Shown piece by piece: positions 2,673 through 55,959 of a stretch of DNA of 64,000 nucleotides. How positions within the stretch are numbered: position 1 is the stretch's first letter; the number at the start of each line of letters is the position of its first letter. Made by a program: the position numbers and the translations under genes. The stretch is from Bacteroidota bacterium. GTDB lineage: Bacteria; Bacteroidota; Bacteroidia; Chitinophagales; LD1. The notes under the pieces are model-generated. The model was given only the letters and a program-made list of their open reading frames with translations, was not told the origin of the DNA and did not search any database. Location of the stretch: contig JAFDYQ010000008.1 in the NCBI GenBank assembly GCA_018267365.1, forward strand, positions 62,001 to 126,000. Reading direction: 5' to 3'.

Positions 2673-2828
2673 GAAATTAAATGATACGGCGTAGTTGTTA
2701 AGTAAGCTTAAGGCGTTAACAAGTTGATAATAACAAAGAAGGAAAGCGTTTGCTGACTGTACCCTCCCGAAAAGCGCCTCAAGCATTATCCAATTAATTT
2801 TATTTTTACCCTGACCAATCCATAAATC

Positions 2829-5297
2829 ATGGCAAAGACCAAACCTGAGATAAAAAACAAGGCCTCTAAGCCGGCATCTTCCGGTGCTCCTTCACCATTT
2901 ATGAAATATGTGCCATATATAGCCGCGCTGATCACATTTGTGGTGATCACGATGGTCTTCTTCGGGCCTATGCTGCTGGATAGCAAAGTGCTGCCTCAGG
3001 GTGATATCAATCAATATGATGGTATGTCTAAGGAGATCAGAGATTTTCGCGAGGCACACCATAGCGAGCCGCTGTGGACCAACTCCATGTTTGGTGGCAT
3101 GCCGGCCTTTCAGATATCTACATATTACAACGGCAACCTGGTGCAATATGTAGAGAAACTGCTGGGCATTGGCCTGCCGGAGTTTACCGGTTACCTCTTT
3201 ATAGCCTGCATCGGTTTTTATATCCTGCTACTGGTACTGAGCGTGAATCCCTGGCTGGCTATAGCCGGCGCGGTGGGCTACAGCCTGGCATCCTACAACC
3301 TGATCATCCTGGAAGCCGGGCATAACACTAAGATGCATGCCATAGCGCTGCTGCCATACGTGGTAGCGGGTTTTATGCTGCTCTGGCGAAAGAAATACAT
3401 ACTGGGCGCTGCGGTCAGTGCGCTGAGCTTCTCCATGCTGATCAGTGCCAATCACGTACAGATAGCATACTACCTATTTCTCACGCTGCTGATAGCAGGT
3501 GTAGTCTTTCTGATATTCTCAGTAGTAGAGAAGGACATCAAGCACTACGTATTGGCCTTTGGCATCTTTGGTGTGTGTGCAGGGCTGGGTGTATTGTCTA
3601 ATCTCAGCCTCCTGTGGACTACCTATGAGTACGGCAACTCTACTATACGCGGCAAATCAGACCTGACCAGCAACACGCAATCTAAAGGCGGCCTGGACCG
3701 CGACTATGCTTTCAGCTATAGCTATACCAAGGCGGAGGCATTCAACCTGCTCATACCAAACCTGATGGGCGGCTCGTCTCAGCAGCTGCTGGACGAAGAC
3801 GCCAAGACCGTACAGGCCATACGCGGGCAGACCCGCTATTTGCCTACCTACTGGGGTGACCAGCCATTTACATCCGGCCCGTCCTACATGGGTGCATTTA
3901 TGATATTCATCTTCGTGCTGGGCCTGATCATCGTAGACGGTCCATTCAAATGGTGGCTGGGTATCGCTACCCTGCTGGCAGTGATGCTGTCCTTCGGCTA
4001 TCACGTAGCCTGGTTCAATAATGCTTTCTTCGATTATTTCCCGGGGTATAACAAATTCCGGACGGTGACCATGTCTCTGATCATCTGCCAGCTCACCATA
4101 CCCCTGCTGGCCCTGCTCACCGCACAGAAGCTGCTAAACAAAGAAGTAAATAAAGAACGCGCACTCACAGGCATCTATATCGCAGCCGGCCTTACTGCCG
4201 GTATCTGTCTGATCTTTGCACTCTTTGGCGGCACACTGATGAGCTTCTCCGGTCCCGGAGATAAGAGCCTGCCTGCAGATATCCTTCCATTCCTGAGAGA
4301 AGACCGCAAGGACCTGATGCGCAGTGATGCCTTCCGCTCTCTCATTATCATATTGATAGGCGCGGGTGTGATATGGGCATTGGTACAAGAGAAGCTAAAT
4401 AAAAATGTCGCTATCGCAGCTATCCTAGTGATCTGCCTGGCAGACTATATCAGCGTGGGCAAGCGCTTTATCAATGGCGATATGTTTACAGAGAAGAATG
4501 AGCAGCAGAGCCGCTTTGCGGAAAGCCCTGCTGACCAGCAGATCCTGGCAGACAAGAGTCCCGACTACCGTGTATTTAATACGACTGTCAACTCCTTTAA
4601 TGATGCCTCGACCTCCTATCACCACAAATCTATAGGTGGCTACCACGCAGCCAAGCTACGCCGCTATCAGGAGCTGATAGAGAATCAGATCAGCAAAGGC
4701 AACATGGCTGTACTGGACATGCTCAACACTAAATACGTGATCCAGAAAGGTGCGGGCGGGCAGCCGGTAGCAGTACAAAACCCCGGTGCCTGTGGCAATG
4801 CCTGGTTTGTAGACAAAGTGCAGCTGGTGAACAATGCAGATGAAGAGATCAAAGCACTCGATAACTTTGATCCGAAGCAAACCGCATTTGTAGACAAGAA
4901 ATTTAGCAACGAGCTACAGGGCTACACTGGTGGCAAGGACTCTGCGTCTCAGATCACCCTGACCAGCTATGAGCCTAACCATCTGGTCTATCAATATACT
5001 GCACCAAAGCCACAGCTGGCTGTATTTTCTGAGATCTACTACCAGCCGGGCTGGAAAGCCACTGTAGATGGCAAAGATGTGCCGATAGTGCGGGCAGACT
5101 ATGTGCTCCGTGCGTCAATACTGCCGGCAGGCAGCCACAAGGTGGAGATGGTCTTCGAGCCCGCATCTTACTTCACAGGTGAGAAAGTGGCCTATGCTGT
5201 TTCTGCATTGATAATAGTGCTCTTTGCGGGAGGCATCTTCCTTGAGTTTAGAAACAATAAGAACCACGGCGGAGATGATCTGCCACACGCTGTCTAG
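2829..5297 (+). CDS. YfhO family membrane protein
   Basis: An 822-residue protein with about a dozen hydrophobic segments in the first 550 residues, starting with one at about residues 28-50, followed by a soluble C-terminal domain. The C-terminal YYQPGWKATVDGKDV segment and the SAGSHKVEMVFEP-like ending (here PAGSHKVEMVFEP) are typical of YfhO proteins, which are GT-C-fold membrane proteins thought to glycosylate cell-wall or exported polymers. The N-terminal 25 residues are rich in Lys and Pro and would be cytoplasmic. The next gene, a GT4 glycosyltransferase, starts 11 bases after the stop, so the two probably form an operon for a surface glycan. The exact substrate is unknown. Confidence 0.9.
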   Translation: MAKTKPEIKNKASKPASSGAPSPFMKYVPYIAALITFVVITMVFFGPMLLDSKVLPQGDINQYDGMSKEIRDFREAHHSEPLWTNSMFGGMPAFQISTYYNGNLVQYVEKLLGIGLPEFTGYLFIACIGFYILLLVLSVNPWLAIAGAVGYSLASYNLIILEAGHNTKMHAIALLPYVVAGFMLLWRKKYILGAAVSALSFSMLISANHVQIAYYLFLTLLIAGVVFLIFSVVEKDIKHYVLAFGIFGVCAGLGVLSNLSLLWTTYEYGNSTIRGKSDLTSNTQSKGGLDRDYAFSYSYTKAEAFNLLIPNLMGGSSQQLLDEDAKTVQAIRGQTRYLPTYWGDQPFTSGPSYMGAFMIFIFVLGLIIVDGPFKWWLGIATLLAVMLSFGYHVAWFNNAFFDYFPGYNKFRTVTMSLIICQLTIPLLALLTAQKLLNKEVNKERALTGIYIAAGLTAGICLIFALFGGTLMSFSGPGDKSLPADILPFLREDRKDLMRSDAFRSLIIILIGAGVIWALVQEKLNKNVAIAAILVICLADYISVGKRFINGDMFTEKNEQQSRFAESPADQQILADKSPDYRVFNTTVNSFNDASTSYHHKSIGGYHAAKLRRYQELIENQISKGNMAVLDMLNTKYVIQKGAGGQPVAVQNPGACGNAWFVDKVQLVNNADEEIKALDNFDPKQTAFVDKKFSNELQGYTGGKDSASQITLTSYEPNHLVYQYTAPKPQLAVFSEIYYQPGWKATVDGKDVPIVRADYVLRASILPAGSHKVEMVFEPASYFTGEKVAYAVSALIIVLFAGGIFLEFRNNKNHGGDDLPHAV

Positions 5298-5308
5298 ACG
5301 GTCGGCAC

Positions 5309-6604
5309 ATGAAGAGAGTTCTCATCATCACGTACTACTGGGTGCCCGCAGGTGGTGTGGCTGTGCAGCGCTTCCTGAAATTTACTAAATACCTGCGTGA
5401 GTATGGCTGGGAGCCGGTGATACTGACCGTAGAAAACGGTAGCTACCCATATACCGATGAATCACTGCAGACACAGGTGCCTGACGGCATAGAGGTACAC
5501 CGCACCAAAACTTTTGAGCCCTTTGAGCTATACAATCTGCTGCGTGGGCAAAAGGGCAAAACTGTACCGCTGGCCGTAGCCACCGCCTCGAACCCTTCGC
5601 TTTTCCAGCGGCTCTCCGCCTATATCCGGGCCAACTACTTCCTGCCTGATGCGCGCCGCGGGTGGAAACCATATGCTGTAAAGAAAGCATCGGAACTGAT
5701 CAGTAAAGGCGACATAGATGCTATCATCACCACAGGACCTCCGCATAGTACCCACCTGATCGGTCAGGAACTCAAGCATCGGTACGGACTACCCTGGCTG
5801 GCTGACTTTCGCGATCCGTGGACGGAGATATTCAATAATCAGTATCTGCCTTTCACCAAGGCATCTATAGTAAAGGACAAAGCCTACGAAGCATCCGTAC
5901 TACGGGACTGTGATATCGCTACAGTGATAGGCGAAGGTATGAAGACCGTCTTCCCGGCAGCCTATACCGGCAAAATGGAAGTGATCACCAATGGCTATGA
6001 CGAGGAGGATTTCACTCCGGGCCTGGCGCCGGAGCGCGACAAGTTTCGCATGCGCTATGTAGGCAATCTATTCTCGAATCAGAATATACCCGCACTATGG
6101 ACGGCCATAGCAGAGCTGCGCGCATCGCATCCTGACTTTCGCCGTGACTTTGAGCTGGAGGTGACAGGCAAAGCTGATGCGGCCGTGACGGAGGCGATAG
6201 CTGTGGCGCAGATCAGCGATTGTACGGTATTCAAACCATTTGTACCCCATAGCGAAGCTATCCGGCGCATGCAGACCGCTGCTCTGCTGCTCTCAGTGAT
6301 ACCAGATGTGGCCAATAACAAACTCATCATCACTGGTAAAGTATTTGAGTACATCGGCGCAGGCAGGCCTGTCTATATGGTAGGCCCCTCTGACTGTGAT
6401 GCCGCGCTCATCGTCTCCGCTGCGCAGGCAGGCACGATACACGACTATACAGAGAAAGATAAAATGAAAACGACACTACTGCAGGAGTACAAGGCATGGC
6501 AGAGTGGCAATACAGCTGTCACTACCTCCGGCAAAGAACGCTATAGCAGGCGCTATCTCACAGGCCGGCTGGCAGCACTGCTCACAGGCCTGATCACAAA
6601 ATAA
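5309..6604 (+). CDS. Glycosyltransferase, GT4-like (GT-B fold)
   Basis: A 431-residue cytoplasmic glycosyltransferase. The N-terminus MKRVLIITYYWVPAGGVAVQ has the GG(V)xxQR pattern of GT-B enzymes that begin by recognising a lipid or glycan acceptor. The second half shows the usual donor-binding region, with the KVFEYIGAGRPVYMVG segment near residues 345-360 carrying the conserved acidic residue. It belongs to a group often found in capsule, O-antigen and exopolysaccharide loci. It follows YfhO by 11 bases and ends just before a hairpin shared with the convergent porU2-like gene. Donor and acceptor cannot be read from the sequence. Confidence 0.88.
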   Translation: MKRVLIITYYWVPAGGVAVQRFLKFTKYLREYGWEPVILTVENGSYPYTDESLQTQVPDGIEVHRTKTFEPFELYNLLRGQKGKTVPLAVATASNPSLFQRLSAYIRANYFLPDARRGWKPYAVKKASELISKGDIDAIITTGPPHSTHLIGQELKHRYGLPWLADFRDPWTEIFNNQYLPFTKASIVKDKAYEASVLRDCDIATVIGEGMKTVFPAAYTGKMEVITNGYDEEDFTPGLAPERDKFRMRYVGNLFSNQNIPALWTAIAELRASHPDFRRDFELEVTGKADAAVTEAIAVAQISDCTVFKPFVPHSEAIRRMQTAALLLSVIPDVANNKLIITGKVFEYIGAGRPVYMVGPSDCDAALIVSAAQAGTIHDYTEKDKMKTTLLQEYKAWQSGNTAVTTSGKERYSRRYLTGRLAALLTGLITK

Positions 6605-6631
6605 AAACAGGGACCATTATCTGATCCCTGT
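6602..6631 (-). terminator. Rho-independent terminator for the porU2-like gene
   Basis: ACAGGGA (6607-6613) pairs with TCCCTGT (6625-6631). On the minus strand the stem is followed by a run of five T, so it ends the transcript of the leftward gene; it lies between two convergent genes and may serve both. Confidence 0.75.
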
Positions 6632-6651
6632 ACAATTAAAAGCTTTAGACT

Positions 6652-9600
6652 TTACCTCAAGATCACCAGTTTACCAAAGCCGTGCTTGAAGTACTGGTCT
6701 ATGTTTGTGTTATTGAAGAATTGGCCGTACTGGCTGCTGCTCATATTGTCAGCATACTTGTCATCTATCTTGGTGATGACGCGATAAAAGTAAGTACCAT
6801 TAGCCAGCTTATCGCCAAACTCATCACGCCCGTCCCACCAGTAGTCCGTACGGTTCACACCTATATGTATATCACCCAGCTCTGCCCGCTGTATCTCTTT
6901 GACCACGTGGCCTGTGATGGTCATGATCTGGATCTTCATATACTCCGGCACCTCGCTACCCGTGAGCGTAAATATAAACTGCGTACGCGTGGTGAATGGA
7001 TTAGGGTAGTTCAGCACATTGCTGATCATCGATTTGGTGATGACATTGAATGATATCTTGTAGTCGTAGTATACTCCGTTGATATTGGTGCCCTCGTACC
7101 TGCCGCTAGGACTATTACTGGAGAAATTGCCGCTGCGGTCTTTGTCACGTACAAGCAGGTCATAAACCCCATCCAGCATAAATGTAGGCTTGAAGGCTAT
7201 CTTGGCTGTATTGTTTTTCGATATATTGCCGGTAGCCGGATAGAAGGTCAGGATGTTATTATCATAGTTGATCAGTGTCGGTATGGTCTGGCCGGGATAG
7301 CGGATATACACTTGCGCCAGAGATGTATCGTTCAGCGCGAGTGTCTTGTTCTCATCTTTCATCTGTATCAGAATCTCAGGCTTGGCAGAGACGAGATCGT
7401 TATTCATGATGCGCCGCCCGTCAAAGGTTACGTCGAGCAGTGGATTGACCTTGTCAGATATACTTCTGAAGTTCAGGATCGCATAGTTGTTGAAGTGGTA
7501 CTGCTCAGGCTGGTGCAGGGCATCTATAGGGTTGGCCTCTATAGTGAGCTGATCCTGGCCTGGCAGGCGCGAGTCACTCATAGGATAGGTGAACTTCAAT
7601 ATCTGGGTATCAAAGGCGCGCAATGAGTCACTCTTGACTATAGTGGCAGGTATCAGGCCACTACCGCCGCGCAGGGTGTACTGCGTGCGCATACTATCCA
7701 TGCTGATCTCTGATACATTCTCCAGGGCCATCTCTACCTTCAGCGTATCACCGGTATTGAATGTATCTCTATTCTGCACAAAGTGTGCAGCGGGATTGAT
7801 AGCAGCCTCCGGTACTTTCTTGTATAGTACCCTCCAGTAGTAGAGCTGCGTAGGAGTGTGATTTATCGAGTCGTCCGTATTCAGCTTGAGGCGGATGTAT
7901 GGGAACTGCGAGGCATTGATAAAGTTGATAGCTGTATCAAGTGCGTTTGTAGTGTAGAGTCGCGTAGACAAACCGTTATTACTCACACCTATGATGTCTA
8001 CAGACTGATGATCGTTTGTCAGGTTCTCCTTTGCATTATACCTCCAGTGGAAGGAGCCCCAGTCCAGCGCGGGACCTATCAGCGGCGAGGCGAAACTGCC
8101 ACGCGGCCAGAGGACGCCATAGTCATAATCTTGCTCCGCAGCACTCTGATAGTTTATGCCCATCTTCTGTACACTCTTTGAGGGGTCACCCTTGACTGTG
8201 AAGAATATGTACGGGGCGGGCGGGTGAGCGCCAGACTTGAGCAGTCGCACACCGGTAGCTCCGATAGACGCCAGCTTATTCACGAGGCCGGTATCCATCC
8301 CTGCCCAGTTAGGCTGATTGACAGAGTACATGACAATGATACATCCACTGGGTATGGAGTCTATAAACCTGGCTATAGTGATAGGCCATGTAGCTCCGGT
8401 GGACGGCGTCTGTACAGCACCCTGGATATTAAAATCGAAACCATTGATAGCGTAATTATGGTTATTGGTGCACTGATAGTTTCCATACTTGTCACCTACA
8501 TTGCCTATAGAAGACTGGAAACTCTGCCACGGCTGGCCGGTAAGCGTGTCTATGACTGCAAATGTAAGGCCACCGCTATTCCCGTTGCCATATGCAAAGC
8601 CACACCCTCCCGTATTGTATCTATATTGAGTGACACTATTATAGTCCCACCTGATCTGAGCAGCCGGTATGGGACCGCCTCCCGCCTCAAATGCCCATGC
8701 AGAAAGAACATGCAGATTATTGATGTTCTTTACAAACTTAAACTCCCGGTCTGGGGCGAGGTACATGTTATCCTGATAGTTGTCGTGGCCATACTGATAG
8801 TAGTGGGACTGGTTCCAGCCGGGGTATTCATTCTGTATATATACAAATGAACTACCATGCCACCTGTAGCTCAGAGTATCATTGATAGAATCACGGCTCA
8901 CACGCCAGTAGTATACGGTACTATCTTTAAATTGGAATGGCACCCGCCAATGTAGCACCCCGCCACCCTGGTAGATATTGGCCTGGGCTATAGGATGGCG
9001 GAAAGTCTCAGCTGTGTCTATCTGTATCTTATAGTTGCGCGGAGCAGCAAATGGATCTACAGTAGAAGCTTTTAGCGTCACATTCTGATTAGGCACTATG
9101 GCAAACTCATAAGGGTAGACCGGTATGATATCATCTGACTGTATGGCAAAACTGAAATTTAGGTTGTCACCATTATTTGTCTCAGACATTTCATCTATCC
9201 GGTGCTCGTTCTCTACATAGACTGTAAATGTGTTTTGACCATAGCCAGTAGTGAGTGTAGGGAAGGTAGCGATCTTGACACTAAAGGTGTCCATATAGTA
9301 TGGCGCTTTGACCTTCCATGTATATATGAGCGTAGTATCAGACATAGGGCTGGACGGTGTAGGATACCTCCTCGTGATCCTGATCTGTATAGAGTCCTTG
9401 ATAGCCTTGCCGAGATTGGCTACTATCACTTTGGCCTGAAAGGTATCTACATTAGCATTGACCACCGGAGGGTCAAAGTAGAGCGAGTTTTGATCTATCT
9501 CATAGTCTGGCTTGGGATACTGATTGAGTATCAGCGCCGGGTCTCCGTGCAGCGTCATATCATAAGCAACCTGCATAGCCAGGTCCTCGCCACCATAGTT

Positions 9601-52315: not shown

Positions 52316-52370
52316 CAACTTTGTGAAACGCGCCCAATCCGAAAAGCGATATGAGTAGGATCACATAAAA
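52316..52370 (+). promoter_or_regulatory. Promoter and leader element of the first paralogue gene
   Basis: CAACTTTG at 52316-52323 (one mismatch to TAnnTTTG) followed, after 14 bases, by TCCGAAAAGCGATA and TGAGTAGGA (52338-52370 as a whole). The same element, 22 of its first 23 bases identical, is found before the fourth paralogue at 53995-54028. Confidence 0.65.
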
Positions 52371-52381
52371 CTATAAGCAAC

Positions 52382-52873
52382 ATGAAAGCAATAATCATTA
52401 CTATACTATCGGCCATGCTGTCGGTATGTAGCTTTGCACAAACCATCCCTTCCACTCCGCAGCCGCTGGAGCAGACTGCCTCCGTGGTCAAGCTCCATAA
52501 GACCGAAAAAGCCGCTCTTTACTATCATGATTATACAGTATCGGATTGCAGCAAATACCATAAAATGAAAGTGGCAGGCATCGTATTGGCCTCAGTAGGT
52601 GCGGCTATGATCATGACCGGTGGTATCATGGCTGCTGTAGACTATCGTACGGTTTATGTCAATGACCCGGGCCGTGGCCCTTATCGTCCTATACACCCCC
52701 TGCGTGCCGCCGGTGGCGCTTTTGTGGCAGTAGGCGCATTGAGTGTCGGGGCGGGTATACCACTGGCTATTATAGGTGGAGTCAAAGGGCATAAATACTG
52801 CCGTGGTGGCTATGCGCCGAGCTCCTACTTACCTGGTAGGGGCGATGGGACAGGTCTGGCCTATAATTTTTAA
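52382..52873 (+). CDS. Paralogue 1 of a four-gene family: signal peptide, Gly-rich two-helix hairpin between two Cys
   Basis: A 163-residue protein of no family I can name. Signal peptide 1-20 (ends CSFAQ). C56 opens the conserved block CSKYHKMKVAGIVL, which leads into the first Gly-rich hydrophobic helix (about 64-85, with MTGGIM). A Pro-rich loop follows, then the second helix (about 108-133) with the invariant AGIPL, and C140 in KGHKYC. The C-terminus ends GDGTGLAYNF, with a final Phe as in outer-membrane strands. The three genes downstream encode the same layout. Export is clear; membrane location and function are unknown. A disulfide between the two Cys is possible. Confidence 0.82.
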   Translation: MKAIIITILSAMLSVCSFAQTIPSTPQPLEQTASVVKLHKTEKAALYYHDYTVSDCSKYHKMKVAGIVLASVGAAMIMTGGIMAAVDYRTVYVNDPGRGPYRPIHPLRAAGGAFVAVGALSVGAGIPLAIIGGVKGHKYCRGGYAPSSYLPGRGDGTGLAYNF

Positions 52874-52935
52874 GCTATTCAAAGGGGCAGCCTTCTGCTG
52901 CCGCCTTGAGAAAGTCTATAATTGAATCCGTTCAC

Positions 52936-53367
52936 ATGAAAGTTTTGATCATCTCATTCGTCTTAATCAGCACGCTGATGACTTACGCACAAGGAGGGCA
53001 AATCGCGTCCTGGCAGCGCAGGTCAGCAGTCCGGGTGGACTATGATGCATCCTACTATACCGCGCCTGATTACACAGCATCGGCTTGTGAGAGATACAAG
53101 GGCATGAAGACCTGTGGGATCGTGCTCACCGCCATCGGTGGCGGGCTGATGGCTACAGGCATCGGTATAGTGGTAGCATCTAATAGTGGTCATATCTATG
53201 GCGGAGCTGAAAACCGCTATTTCAGAGGTACGACTCCGCTGGTGGCGGGCGGGGCAGCAGCTCTGGCGATCAGCAGTCTCAGCCTTAGCGCAGGGATACC
53301 TCTGACTGTCTTCGGGCAGATGAAGCAAAAAAGGGTGTGCAGTCACGCAACTGTCAGGGACTTTTAG
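52936..53367 (+). CDS. Paralogue 2 of the four-gene family
   Basis: A 143-residue protein, the shortest of the four. Signal peptide 1-19 (ends LMTYAQ); the ATG at 52936 is chosen because it yields this peptide, while an in-frame start 10 codons earlier does not. C51 begins CERYKGMKTCGIVL; the second helix carries AGIPLTVFGQMKQKRVC ending at C135. The two Cys are 84 residues apart, as in paralogue 1. The tail is cut short to SHATVRDF and lacks the GTGLAxxF ending. It starts 62 bases after paralogue 1. Confidence 0.8.
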   Translation: MKVLIISFVLISTLMTYAQGGQIASWQRRSAVRVDYDASYYTAPDYTASACERYKGMKTCGIVLTAIGGGLMATGIGIVVASNSGHIYGGAENRYFRGTTPLVAGGAAALAISSLSLSAGIPLTVFGQMKQKRVCSHATVRDF

Positions 53368-53425
53368 CTGTCTTTTCAGAGTCTGTCAGTGGCTGTCATT
53401 CGTAGATATTTTTTAACTTCAAGTC

Positions 53426-53935
53426 ATGAAAACTTTTATTCTCATTCTGACGCTATTGATCTCCGTCTTGCATGGGTATTGCCAGAGTGAAATGACCGTA
53501 CCACAGCAGCAGCTACCATCTGCTCAGCCTGAGTCTGTGATGCGTTTGCGCACCGCCCCTGATCCGTACACACACCAGTACAATGAGAACTTTCAGGATA
53601 TGTGCATTCGCTACAAGGCGGTAAAAACAAGTGGATTAGTTCTGTCTGTGCTGGGAGGCGGGCTGATTGTGACCGGTGCAGCGCTTTTACCACATATACA
53701 CACACTGCCGGGACAGGTCACTGAATACGCCCAGACAGTAAATACCCGTCAGCGCACGGCTGCCAAGGCTGCCATAGTAGTGGGTGCACTATCTGTAGCA
53801 GCGGGCATACCTATGATCACTTTTGGAGCGATACGCTCCCGCCGCGCTTGTGGCAGCCCGGCCCGGGGCAGGTCAGGAGCTAAGCTTAACCTGCAGACCG
53901 GAGAAAACGGCGCAGGTATGGCATTACAGTTTTGA
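53426..53935 (+). CDS. Paralogue 3 of the four-gene family
   Basis: A 169-residue protein. Signal peptide 1-20 (ends HGYCQ). C60 begins CIRYKAVKTSGLVL, the first helix has GGGLIVTGA, and the second has ALSVAAGIPMITFG, then IRSRRAC at C142. The C-terminus, LNLQTGENGAGMALQF, matches that of paralogue 4 (LELHSGENGTGLALKF). The loop between the helices (HIHTLPGQVTEYAQTVNTR) is unique to this copy. It begins 58 bases after paralogue 2. Confidence 0.82.
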   Translation: MKTFILILTLLISVLHGYCQSEMTVPQQQLPSAQPESVMRLRTAPDPYTHQYNENFQDMCIRYKAVKTSGLVLSVLGGGLIVTGAALLPHIHTLPGQVTEYAQTVNTRQRTAAKAAIVVGALSVAAGIPMITFGAIRSRRACGSPARGRSGAKLNLQTGENGAGMALQF

Positions 53936-53974
53936 TCCGTACCAGTACGGATTTTTTTGTATTATCCCTTTCAT

Positions 53975-54028
53975 TATCTTAGCTCTACGCGGATTCCGAA
54001 AAGCGATAAGAGTAGGAGCAACCTAAAA
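53975..54028 (+). promoter_or_regulatory. Promoter and leader element of the fourth paralogue gene
   Basis: TATCTTAG at 53975-53982 (one mismatch to TAnnTTTG), 12 bases, then TCCGAAAAGCGATA and AGAGTAGGA (53995-54028). It is a near-copy of the element before paralogue 1. Confidence 0.6.
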
Positions 54029-54039
54029 ATTAAACTCAA

Positions 54040-54555
54040 ATGAAGTCATTTACCCTCGCCCTTTTTGCGGCACTTTGTACACTTTTCTCTTATGCTCAGA
54101 GCAGTGAGCCGGCATCAGTCATGGTGCAGCCCACCATGCACCATTCAGCAGAATTTCTCAATACCGAGCTGCCTACCCTGGCCTCGCTCAATAAGTCGGC
54201 CTCGTACGCAGACTATGCAGCTGCAGCCCAGGCGAGCGATGCTAAATGTGGCAAATACAAGAAACTAAAAACTGTCGGTATCATCCTGTCTGCTGTGGGC
54301 GGTGGCCTGATCGTGACAGGAGCTGTGATGGCAGGTGTAGCCGTGCACAATGCAGTAGCGGGAAATGGGTCTGTGAACAATGTGGGCCTTGCGGCTGGCG
54401 GCTATGTGATGGTCGTCTTTGGTGTATTCTCGGCTGGTGCAGGCATCCCACTGGCCGTGATAGGCTCCGTGAAACAGAAGAAATACTGCTCCGGCTCCTC
54501 TTCTCTCGAGCTGCACTCAGGAGAGAATGGCACAGGACTCGCCCTGAAGTTCTGA
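54040..54555 (+). CDS. Paralogue 4 of the four-gene family
   Basis: A 171-residue protein. Signal peptide 1-20 (ends FSYAQ). C70 begins CGKYKKLKTVGIIL; helix 1 has GGGLIVTGAVM and helix 2 has SAGAGIPLAVIG, then KQKKYC at C150. The C-terminus is LHSGENGTGLALKF. The N-terminal region before C70 is longer than in the others and rich in Ala, Ser and Tyr. It is 104 bases after paralogue 3, has its own leader element and is followed by a strong terminator, so it may be transcribed separately as well as with the others. Confidence 0.82.
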   Translation: MKSFTLALFAALCTLFSYAQSSEPASVMVQPTMHHSAEFLNTELPTLASLNKSASYADYAAAAQASDAKCGKYKKLKTVGIILSAVGGGLIVTGAVMAGVAVHNAVAGNGSVNNVGLAAGGYVMVVFGVFSAGAGIPLAVIGSVKQKKYCSGSSSLELHSGENGTGLALKF

Positions 54556-54577: not shown

Positions 54578-54608
54578 CAAAACCCTGCCATCCGGCGGGG
54601 TTTTGCTT
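54578..54608 (+). terminator. Terminator of the paralogue array
   Basis: CAAAACCC (54578-54585) pairs with GGGTTTTG (54598-54605), with an inner GCC/GGC stem, and is followed by a T-rich stretch. Confidence 0.85.
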
Positions 54609-54663: not shown

Positions 54664-55959
54664 ATGACTATTGATGAGATCAATCGCCTAGAACTGGTTG
54701 TACAACAATTGGAACAAATTTCAATTGAAGAAACGCTAAGGCAGTTTCGAAGTAACTTAAAGGATGATGATATACTCCTAGAAAATTTTACTAAACAGAA
54801 AATCGTAAATACTTTTAATAAAACAGTACATAATTTCCGAGGAATTCTGAATGATAATTACGTATTATTTTTACCTGGTCCATTTCACGCTGGAGTAAAT
54901 AACCACAACATCATCAATGATTTATCTGGCTTAAACAGTTCACTTCGAGGAAATGATATGACAGGAGCTGCTGTGAATCTACGATTTACTGTTGACTACC
55001 AGATTCTTTATAATTTTTGGGATAGGTATGAAAGTATTAATCTACGAACCGATCTAACTCAGATAGAAAACTACAGAGATCGTCTCCAAGTTATATACAA
55101 TCAAGTTCAAAAAGATAATGCGCAATATAAAAGTGTTCTGACTTTATTTGAAGAATTTAAAAAAGACTTAAATACACTTATATCAAATAGTCGGATTGAC
55201 TTCGAAACAATTAGCAATAACAAAACAGTTTCTGAAAATTACAGGAATGAGCTTACGACCCTAAAAACAGAAAGTGAAGTCAATAAGGATGCGATAGCAA
55301 CAATTAGAAATGAGCAAGGACTTTTACTCGAAGACATGCGCTTGAAAGAAAACGAGCTTGGTAACCTTGTAAAAACCTTAACAGAATCTCAAAGCAAGTA
55401 TAATTTGGCTATAGACGCTATTAATAAGGATGTAGAATATATTTTGGGCAAGAAAAACGAAATTGACAACTTAACGGGTCAAGCTGCGGATGGAGCTTTA
55501 GGCCATACCTTTAATAAAAGGACTGCGGATCTCAAAAAGAATTCCCAGACATGGATGTGGGCTGTTATTTTTTCAGGAGTTGTCCTTGTAATTTGGTTAT
55601 TCGTTATTTTTTATTTTTTAGCGCCCCAAAGTGGTAATGTTTGGTTAGATTTTCTTATCAACATTGCTAGGTCTTCACCGGGCTGGCTACTTATAGGTTT
55701 TTGCATTTCTCAATATACTAAGGAAAGAAACTTGGAGGAAGAATATGCTTTCAAGGCGGCAGTAGCAATGACCATCAGTGCTTACACGGATAAACTAGGC
55801 AGTGGAAAAGACGAAATGCTCCGAGAAAGCACTCAAAAAGTCTATGAATTGCCTTCTTCTTTGATTGATAAACACAAAACTCCTGAATCGCTAATCCCGA
55901 AAAACCTCGCAGAGACTATCAAAGCTTTAGGTGAGGCTATAAAATCGGCAAAGGCTTGA
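54664..55959 (+). CDS. Coiled-coil membrane protein with two C-terminal transmembrane segments, AT-rich
   Basis: A 431-residue protein that I do not recognise. Residues 1-130 are mixed and may form a globular domain. About 135-285 are strongly helical and charged (coiled coil, many Glu, Lys, Asn). Two membrane segments lie near 297-317 and 335-350, separated by a short loop (LAPQSGNVWLDF). After these comes a conserved-looking RNLEEEYAFKAAVAM stretch and a soluble tail. No signal peptide; the N-terminus should be cytoplasmic. Base composition is visibly AT-rich compared with all neighbours, with many AAT, ATT and AAA codons, so recent acquisition is likely. Function is unknown. Confidence 0.85.
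   Translation: MTIDEINRLELVVQQLEQISIEETLRQFRSNLKDDDILLENFTKQKIVNTFNKTVHNFRGILNDNYVLFLPGPFHAGVNNHNIINDLSGLNSSLRGNDMTGAAVNLRFTVDYQILYNFWDRYESINLRTDLTQIENYRDRLQVIYNQVQKDNAQYKSVLTLFEEFKKDLNTLISNSRIDFETISNNKTVSENYRNELTTLKTESEVNKDAIATIRNEQGLLLEDMRLKENELGNLVKTLTESQSKYNLAIDAINKDVEYILGKKNEIDNLTGQAADGALGHTFNKRTADLKKNSQTWMWAVIFSGVVLVIWLFVIFYFLAPQSGNVWLDFLINIARSSPGWLLIGFCISQYTKERNLEEEYAFKAAVAMTISAYTDKLGSGKDEMLRESTQKVYELPSSLIDKHKTPESLIPKNLAETIKALGEAIKSAKA

Follow-up and report, generated by a model that had tools for sequence, protein, structure and literature searches.

A tandem array of predicted exported helical hairpins with a heptad glycine ladder in a Bacteroidota genome

Introduction

What do four short adjacent genes encode when their products match no catalogued protein family, and are they recent variants of one another or duplicates of long standing? 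The question is raised by a locus of a Bacteroidota bacterium, located in the stretch of 64,000 nucleotides that was analysed here (the window); all the features placed in it below are on the forward (+) strand. An initial annotation had seen the four genes as a tandem array of diverged paralogues forming an undescribed secreted family, with a helical hairpin and a possible disulfide, and had read the local duplication as a need for variants. We find that the array is one branch of a larger dispersed family, that it is old, and that it follows a precise structural rule. At a probability of about one half, its products would be exported two-helix hairpins, clamped by a disulfide and seated in a membrane of the cell envelope, with a structural or stress-related role.

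Four adjacent genes

The first gene, p1 (52382-52873), is predicted to encode an exported hairpin protein of 163 residues, with orthologues in the related genomes G004 and G005; its two cysteines, Cys56 and Cys140, are specified by the codons at 52547-52549 and 52799-52801. It is followed by p2 (52936-53367; 143 residues, with a short tail), carrying Cys51 and Cys135 (53086-53088 and 53338-53340), the natural start of which is the ATG at 52936 rather than the upstream TTG chosen in the listed set of open reading frames. Then come p3 (53426-53935; 169 residues; Cys60 and Cys142, at 53603-53605 and 53849-53851) and p4 (54040-54555; 171 residues; Cys70 and Cys150, at 54247-54249 and 54487-54489), for which a structure model was made. 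The cysteine spacings of 84, 84, 82 and 80 residues had been given exactly, and the features ascribed to the four reading frames are all there: a signal-peptide-like N-terminus, ending in A-Q or similar, the C-x-[KR]-Y block, the AGIP motif and the second cysteine. Alignment of the four proteins leaves 18 invariant columns, among them C, Y, K, spaced glycines, AGIP, the second C and a terminal F. This last residue, noted earlier in three of the four, closes all four window copies and is sometimes replaced by L or Y in orthologues of p1 and p2.

None of the four has a credible match in Pfam, NCBIfam, PHROGs, PADLOC or the sequences of the PDB, where the weak matches fall far under the cut-offs and cover hydrophobic stretches only, and a search of plasmid and viral contigs gave no match to the family either. 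The proposal that these proteins are undescribed thus stands: no characterised family turned up, and we are dealing with a real, uncatalogued family branch of Bacteroidota.

Signals for transcription are less telling. Downstream of p4, a hairpin of 12 pairs with a T-rich tail (54578-54605) is tentatively an intrinsic terminator, such sites being about as common as in shuffled sequences, and a sigma-70 scan gave no excess of sites. Before p3 (53395-53425), a TAGATA-TTTT stretch is conserved across the three genomes (TAATTTTG in G004) and suggests a separate promoter for this gene. Between p4 and mltG lies a gene for a 431-residue coiled-coil protein with a transmembrane stretch (54664-55959); the corresponding site in G004 and G005 lacks this gene, which carries a TATATTTG box of its own.

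An old array under purifying selection

The order p1-p2-p3-p4 is kept in the sister genome G005 (UBA1941), and p1-p2-p3 in G004 (SZAS-56), as expected from an array that does not owe its existence to chance. In both genomes it is always flanked by the gene for an acyl-CoA dehydrogenase and by mltG, while in G002 a single member adjoins mltG at the end of a contig. These flanks, together with a glycosyltransferase-like gene, make up the neighbourhood of the array; housekeeping in nature and kept in three genomes, none of the neighbours indicates a function.

Orthologues share 63-78% of their residues, paralogues 34-39%, and in a tree the orthologues group by their position in the array. The ratio dN/dS of orthologues is about 0.10-0.26, a rough figure since dS mostly exceeds 1. 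Taken together, identity, tree and dN/dS mark p1-p4 as old duplicates under purifying selection; they evolve fast, the neighbouring proteins that were compared being 87-99% identical. The idea that duplication answers a need for variants is not supported, as the duplications are older than the split between the species. That four paralogues have been kept for so long suggests divided roles, or a hetero-oligomer.

A larger, dispersed family

The source genome holds about 11 copies of the family, that is, some seven dispersed members beyond p1-p4, and in the genus's three best-assembled genomes a broad profile (A4) detects 9-11 copies. The same profile matches the majority of genomes from this bacterial family, 28 of 99 genomes sampled in the order and 12 of 149 sampled in the class, counts taken at an E-value of 0.001, so that some may be matches of composition. 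It found nothing in about 75 genomes from other classes of the phylum, on which the specificity of the family rests. Homology drawn from a profile only is risky for glycine-rich helices, as members shuffled by blocks still score up to 39 bits; sequences of at least 40 bits were therefore the only ones treated as safe relatives. The four genes do form an uncatalogued group, as had been proposed, yet not an isolated one: they belong to a single cysteine-bearing branch.

Genomes of the same bacterial family contain further members, some of them in tandem, such as four long forms within positions 2814-6714 of locus L082. The longer members have an additional domain, small and of beta type, on the N-terminal side of the hairpin. 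In the model of a long form (mean pLDDT 60.5) this domain resembles Sm-like or Hfq folds, with a best E-value of 0.03, and is followed by two long helices.

A glycine ladder in both helices

In the family alignment both helices carry glycines at a period of seven residues, and the two series stand in exact antiparallel register. The ladder of p4 consists of G80, G87 and G94 in helix 1 (54268-54345) and of G121, G128, G135 (that of AGIP) and G142 in helix 2 (54391-54477); that of p1 of G66, G73 and G80 in helix 1 (52568-52633) and of G118, G125 (AGIP) and G132 in helix 2 (52715-52789). At the six main rungs, G80, G87, G94, G128, G135 and G142 in the numbering of p4, glycine accounts for 75-100% of the residues in 36 diverse members. 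Glycine pairs seven residues apart number 325 against 117 in shuffled sequences (z 23.7), and pairs fourteen apart 200 against 75 (z 17.1), both z values being inflated by the relatedness of the sequences; at distances of three and four, glycine pairs are depleted, with 60 pairs where 133 are expected at a distance of four. The SlyB-type glycine zipper, with its GxxxG spacing, was considered for these helices and is ruled out by this test.

The antiparallel register can be read directly from residue numbers, since facing rungs add up to a constant: 66+132 = 73+125 = 80+118 = 198 in p1, 61+127 = 68+120 = 188 in p2, where the third rung is a serine, 70+134 = 77+127 = 84+120 = 204 in p3, and 80+142 = 87+135 = 94+128 = 222 in p4. 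Such constancy is in part a product of the alignment, yet the raw numbers show it as well. What had been noticed as a hydrophobic segment rich in glycine is indeed rich in glycine and, more specifically, a heptad ladder running through both helices. The two cysteines sit at a fixed height on this ladder, with sums (196, 186, 202 and 220 for p1 to p4) that are always the glycine sum minus 2, so that their spacing varies only with the length of the loop.

The family can therefore be defined by a testable rule, a rung-for-rung heptad glycine ladder with an all-or-none cysteine pair, in place of a vague richness in glycine.

A cysteine pair gained and lost as a unit

Among the 60 members scoring at least 40 bits, to which this test was restricted, 22 have both cysteines, 37 have neither, and a single, poorly aligned one has one. 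The members with cysteines make up one clade, within which one protein has lost both together, and 19 of the 22 end in F. That protein is encoded in G008 (locus L015, 1501-1986, +), next to another member of the family (1994-2440, +). A disulfide would be expected to leave just this pattern, with both residues gained or lost together, and the two cysteines are probably linked in this way, a reading based on their distribution in sequences. The possible disulfide of the initial annotation is thus strengthened in that the pair behaves as a unit, and narrowed in that it is limited to one clade; likewise, cysteines and AGIP are both conserved in the orthologues, the cysteine pair being clade-specific in the wider family. 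As most of that family does without cysteines, the fold does not depend on the clamp.

An RNA element before two of the genes

The account first given of the array had missed an RNA element before p1 and p4. The DUF805b cis-regulatory RNA (RF02914) is found at 53986-54018, 21-22 nucleotides before the ATG of p4, with 37.2 bits against a gathering score of 35.6. A DUF805b-like copy at 52329-52361, about 21 nucleotides before the ATG of p1, remains below the Rfam cut-off (17.0 bits, E 0.005). The two share a core of 22 bases, CCGAAAAGCGATANGAGTAGGA, with a one-base difference, and both stems can form in the p1 copy; no other site in the genome comes within three mismatches of this core. The p4 element has an orthologous copy in G005, and that of p1 is kept in G004 and G005. 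No such element was found before p2, p3 or any other family member recovered. Just before the p4 element, TATCTTAG (53975-53982) is a possible but weak -7 box of the TAnnTTTG kind, a box present at only 11 of 95 of these RNAs.

DUF805b turned up in 28 of the 30 genomes searched in the bacterial family, and in no genome of a control set of 14. Most of the 95 copies collected in this way lie 15-25 nucleotides before an ATG, and a hydrophobic N-terminus is seen in 56 of the 84 proteins encoded downstream, compared with 44% of background reading frames, by a crude measure in which paralogues are not independent. The copies pair as an H-type pseudoknot in 96.7% of cells, as against 71.1% in shuffles, with a covariation of 0.546 against 0.114. 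Stem 1 shows compensatory changes at all four pairs; in stem 2, where the two inner pairs are fixed by the search pattern, the outer pair switches between G-C, U-A and A-U. The Rfam model as printed comprises stem 1 only. From its place before the ATG, we would guess that the element is a leader controlling translation. Two members of the family are thereby tied to an orphan RNA element, the role of which can be tested with a simple reporter, given its presence in 28 of 30 genomes and its near-fixed distance to the start codon.

At three loci (L202, L222 and L237, in G007:C7, G006:C168 and G040:C49) several DUF805b RNAs are clustered, some as back-to-back double copies, each preceding a different gene, including genes for secreted cysteine-rich and tail-fibre-like proteins. 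A longer DUF805-type RNA (L187 and L236; L179 and L184) precedes genes that, named by eye, are aquaporin-like, rhodopsin-like or DUF805-like. Judged from this variety of downstream genes, the targets of the RNA clan would be diverse membrane and exported proteins.

Topology and rival explanations

An AlphaFold2 model of p4, built with 14 sequences, has helices at residues 47-106 (60 residues) and 113-153 (41 residues), with a mean pLDDT of 62.7 and an unstructured tail (pLDDT about 43); it agrees, with modest confidence, with the hairpin first proposed. The two hydrophobic segments are about 19-21 residues long, with a mean hydropathy of about 2. Over 53 members, the mean net charge is +2.75 before helix 1, -0.32 in the loop and +2.83 after helix 2. 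Should the signal peptide be cleaved, as its form suggests, the flanks would be periplasmic, which goes against the positive-inside rule for a hairpin of the inner membrane and favours the outer one.

The preferred reading would then run as follows. The core of each protein would be one antiparallel pair of long hydrophobic helices, the glycine stripes of which face each other rung for rung and allow very close packing as a left-handed pair. At the open end of the hairpin, the two cysteines, at equal height in p1-p4, would form a disulfide clamp in the oxidizing periplasm. With its positive flanks and near-neutral loop, the hairpin would enter a membrane from the periplasmic side, more likely the outer membrane than the other, as charges along the sequences lead us to infer. 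The N-terminal linker, which is variable, would stay in the periplasm together with the GxGLxLxF tail, and both would contact partners. The F-ended tail bears some resemblance, and only that, to the way in which outer-membrane strands end; no barrel can be made from one terminal strand by itself. Most likely the protein would be a structural or stress-related component of the envelope, working in the manner of small hairpin proteins such as SlyB and unrelated to them. Production of p1 and p4, and not that of p2 and p3, would be set by the pseudoknot in their 5' leaders, an element also present before genes for other proteins, mostly exported ones, in this bacterial family.

The hydrophobic segments could suit the inner membrane as well, and the charge bias could have other causes. 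Two-helix proteins with a cytoplasmic loop, acting as small partner subunits of an inner-membrane complex, are accordingly a possible though doubtful explanation: segments of this length and hydropathy suffice for stop-transfer after Sec export, but flanks at about +2.8, periplasmic after cleavage, and a loop at about -0.3 are the reverse of the positive-inside rule. It is rather improbable that the proteins are soluble periplasmic hairpins, or four-helix bundles made of two of them, for in its core each helix consists almost entirely of Ala, Gly, Ile, Leu and Val and is uncharged over some 20 residues, even though the predicted helices, at 60 and 41 residues, far exceed the thickness of a membrane.

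The best fold match of the p4 model is the hydrophobic hairpin of AhlB/SmhB (Foldseek probability 1.00, E 0.13, Z 10.7), which brings to mind secreted pore-forming or antagonistic proteins whose hydrophobic hairpin inserts into other cells, in the way of the Cdz bacteriocin or of component B in tripartite alpha pore-forming toxins. The alignment covers the hairpin only, of a low-confidence model, and the tool itself warns that a Z below about 13 may reflect, for helical pairs, a common arrangement; we set it aside as a match that may be generic to helical pairs. Nor do immunity-like or secretion genes lie beside the array, with its conserved housekeeping flanks. Cdz is a two-protein bacteriocin with GxxxGxxxG repeats and type I secretion (PMC5380434), whereas here the GxxxG spacing is depleted, glycines being seven and not four residues apart, the signal peptides of p1-p4 are of the Sec type, and no type I secretion genes accompany the four genes. 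An antagonistic role is, in our opinion, very unlikely.

A bolder scheme would unite all of this: heptad-glycine hairpins forming oligomeric envelope assemblies specific to Bacteroidota, to which long forms add a ring-forming Sm-like periplasmic domain, the cysteine branch a disulfide clamp and tandem copies hetero-oligomers, with DUF805b as the translational pseudoknot switch of their envelope regulon. As a whole, we deem it unlikely.

Comparison with known systems

The N-terminal domain of the long forms resembles YgdI/YgdR and LA_0442-type domains (NF047433), with E-values of 3e-4 for one member and 0.006 for another, both below the cut-off, and it is missing from p1-p4. As for the RNA, the p4 leader passes the Rfam cut-off for DUF805b and the p1 copy does not; the genes downstream, here and in relatives, are mostly not those of DUF805-like proteins.

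SlyB and the other glycine-zipper two-helix outer-membrane lipoproteins (PF05433) come close in being small and exported, with a glycine-rich pair of hydrophobic helices, and SlyB assembles in the outer membrane into ring-shaped complexes, inside which barrel proteins may be encapsulated (PMC13067283). By contrast, p1-p4 have a glycine spacing of seven instead of four, a cysteine pair and an F-ended tail. PF05433 gave no match to them at E-values up to 10, nor to eight family members at up to 1, and was found in only one of 20 relatives; no lipobox ([LVI][ASTVI][GAS]C) is present in their signal regions. SlyB is absent from the fold-search list, which counts neither for nor against a relation.

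The nearest likeness for the ladder is found in tetraspanins, where heptad glycines (GG7) of TM1 and TM2 allow left-handed close packing of the helix pair (PMC1190194). There, too, a glycine at every seventh residue brings two helices together; here, by contrast, one protein amounts to a single hairpin, with three to four rungs on both helices, and we claim no relation in sequence. In kind, then, these proteins, as predicted small hairpins of the envelope, are ordinary; what is new in them is their structural rule.
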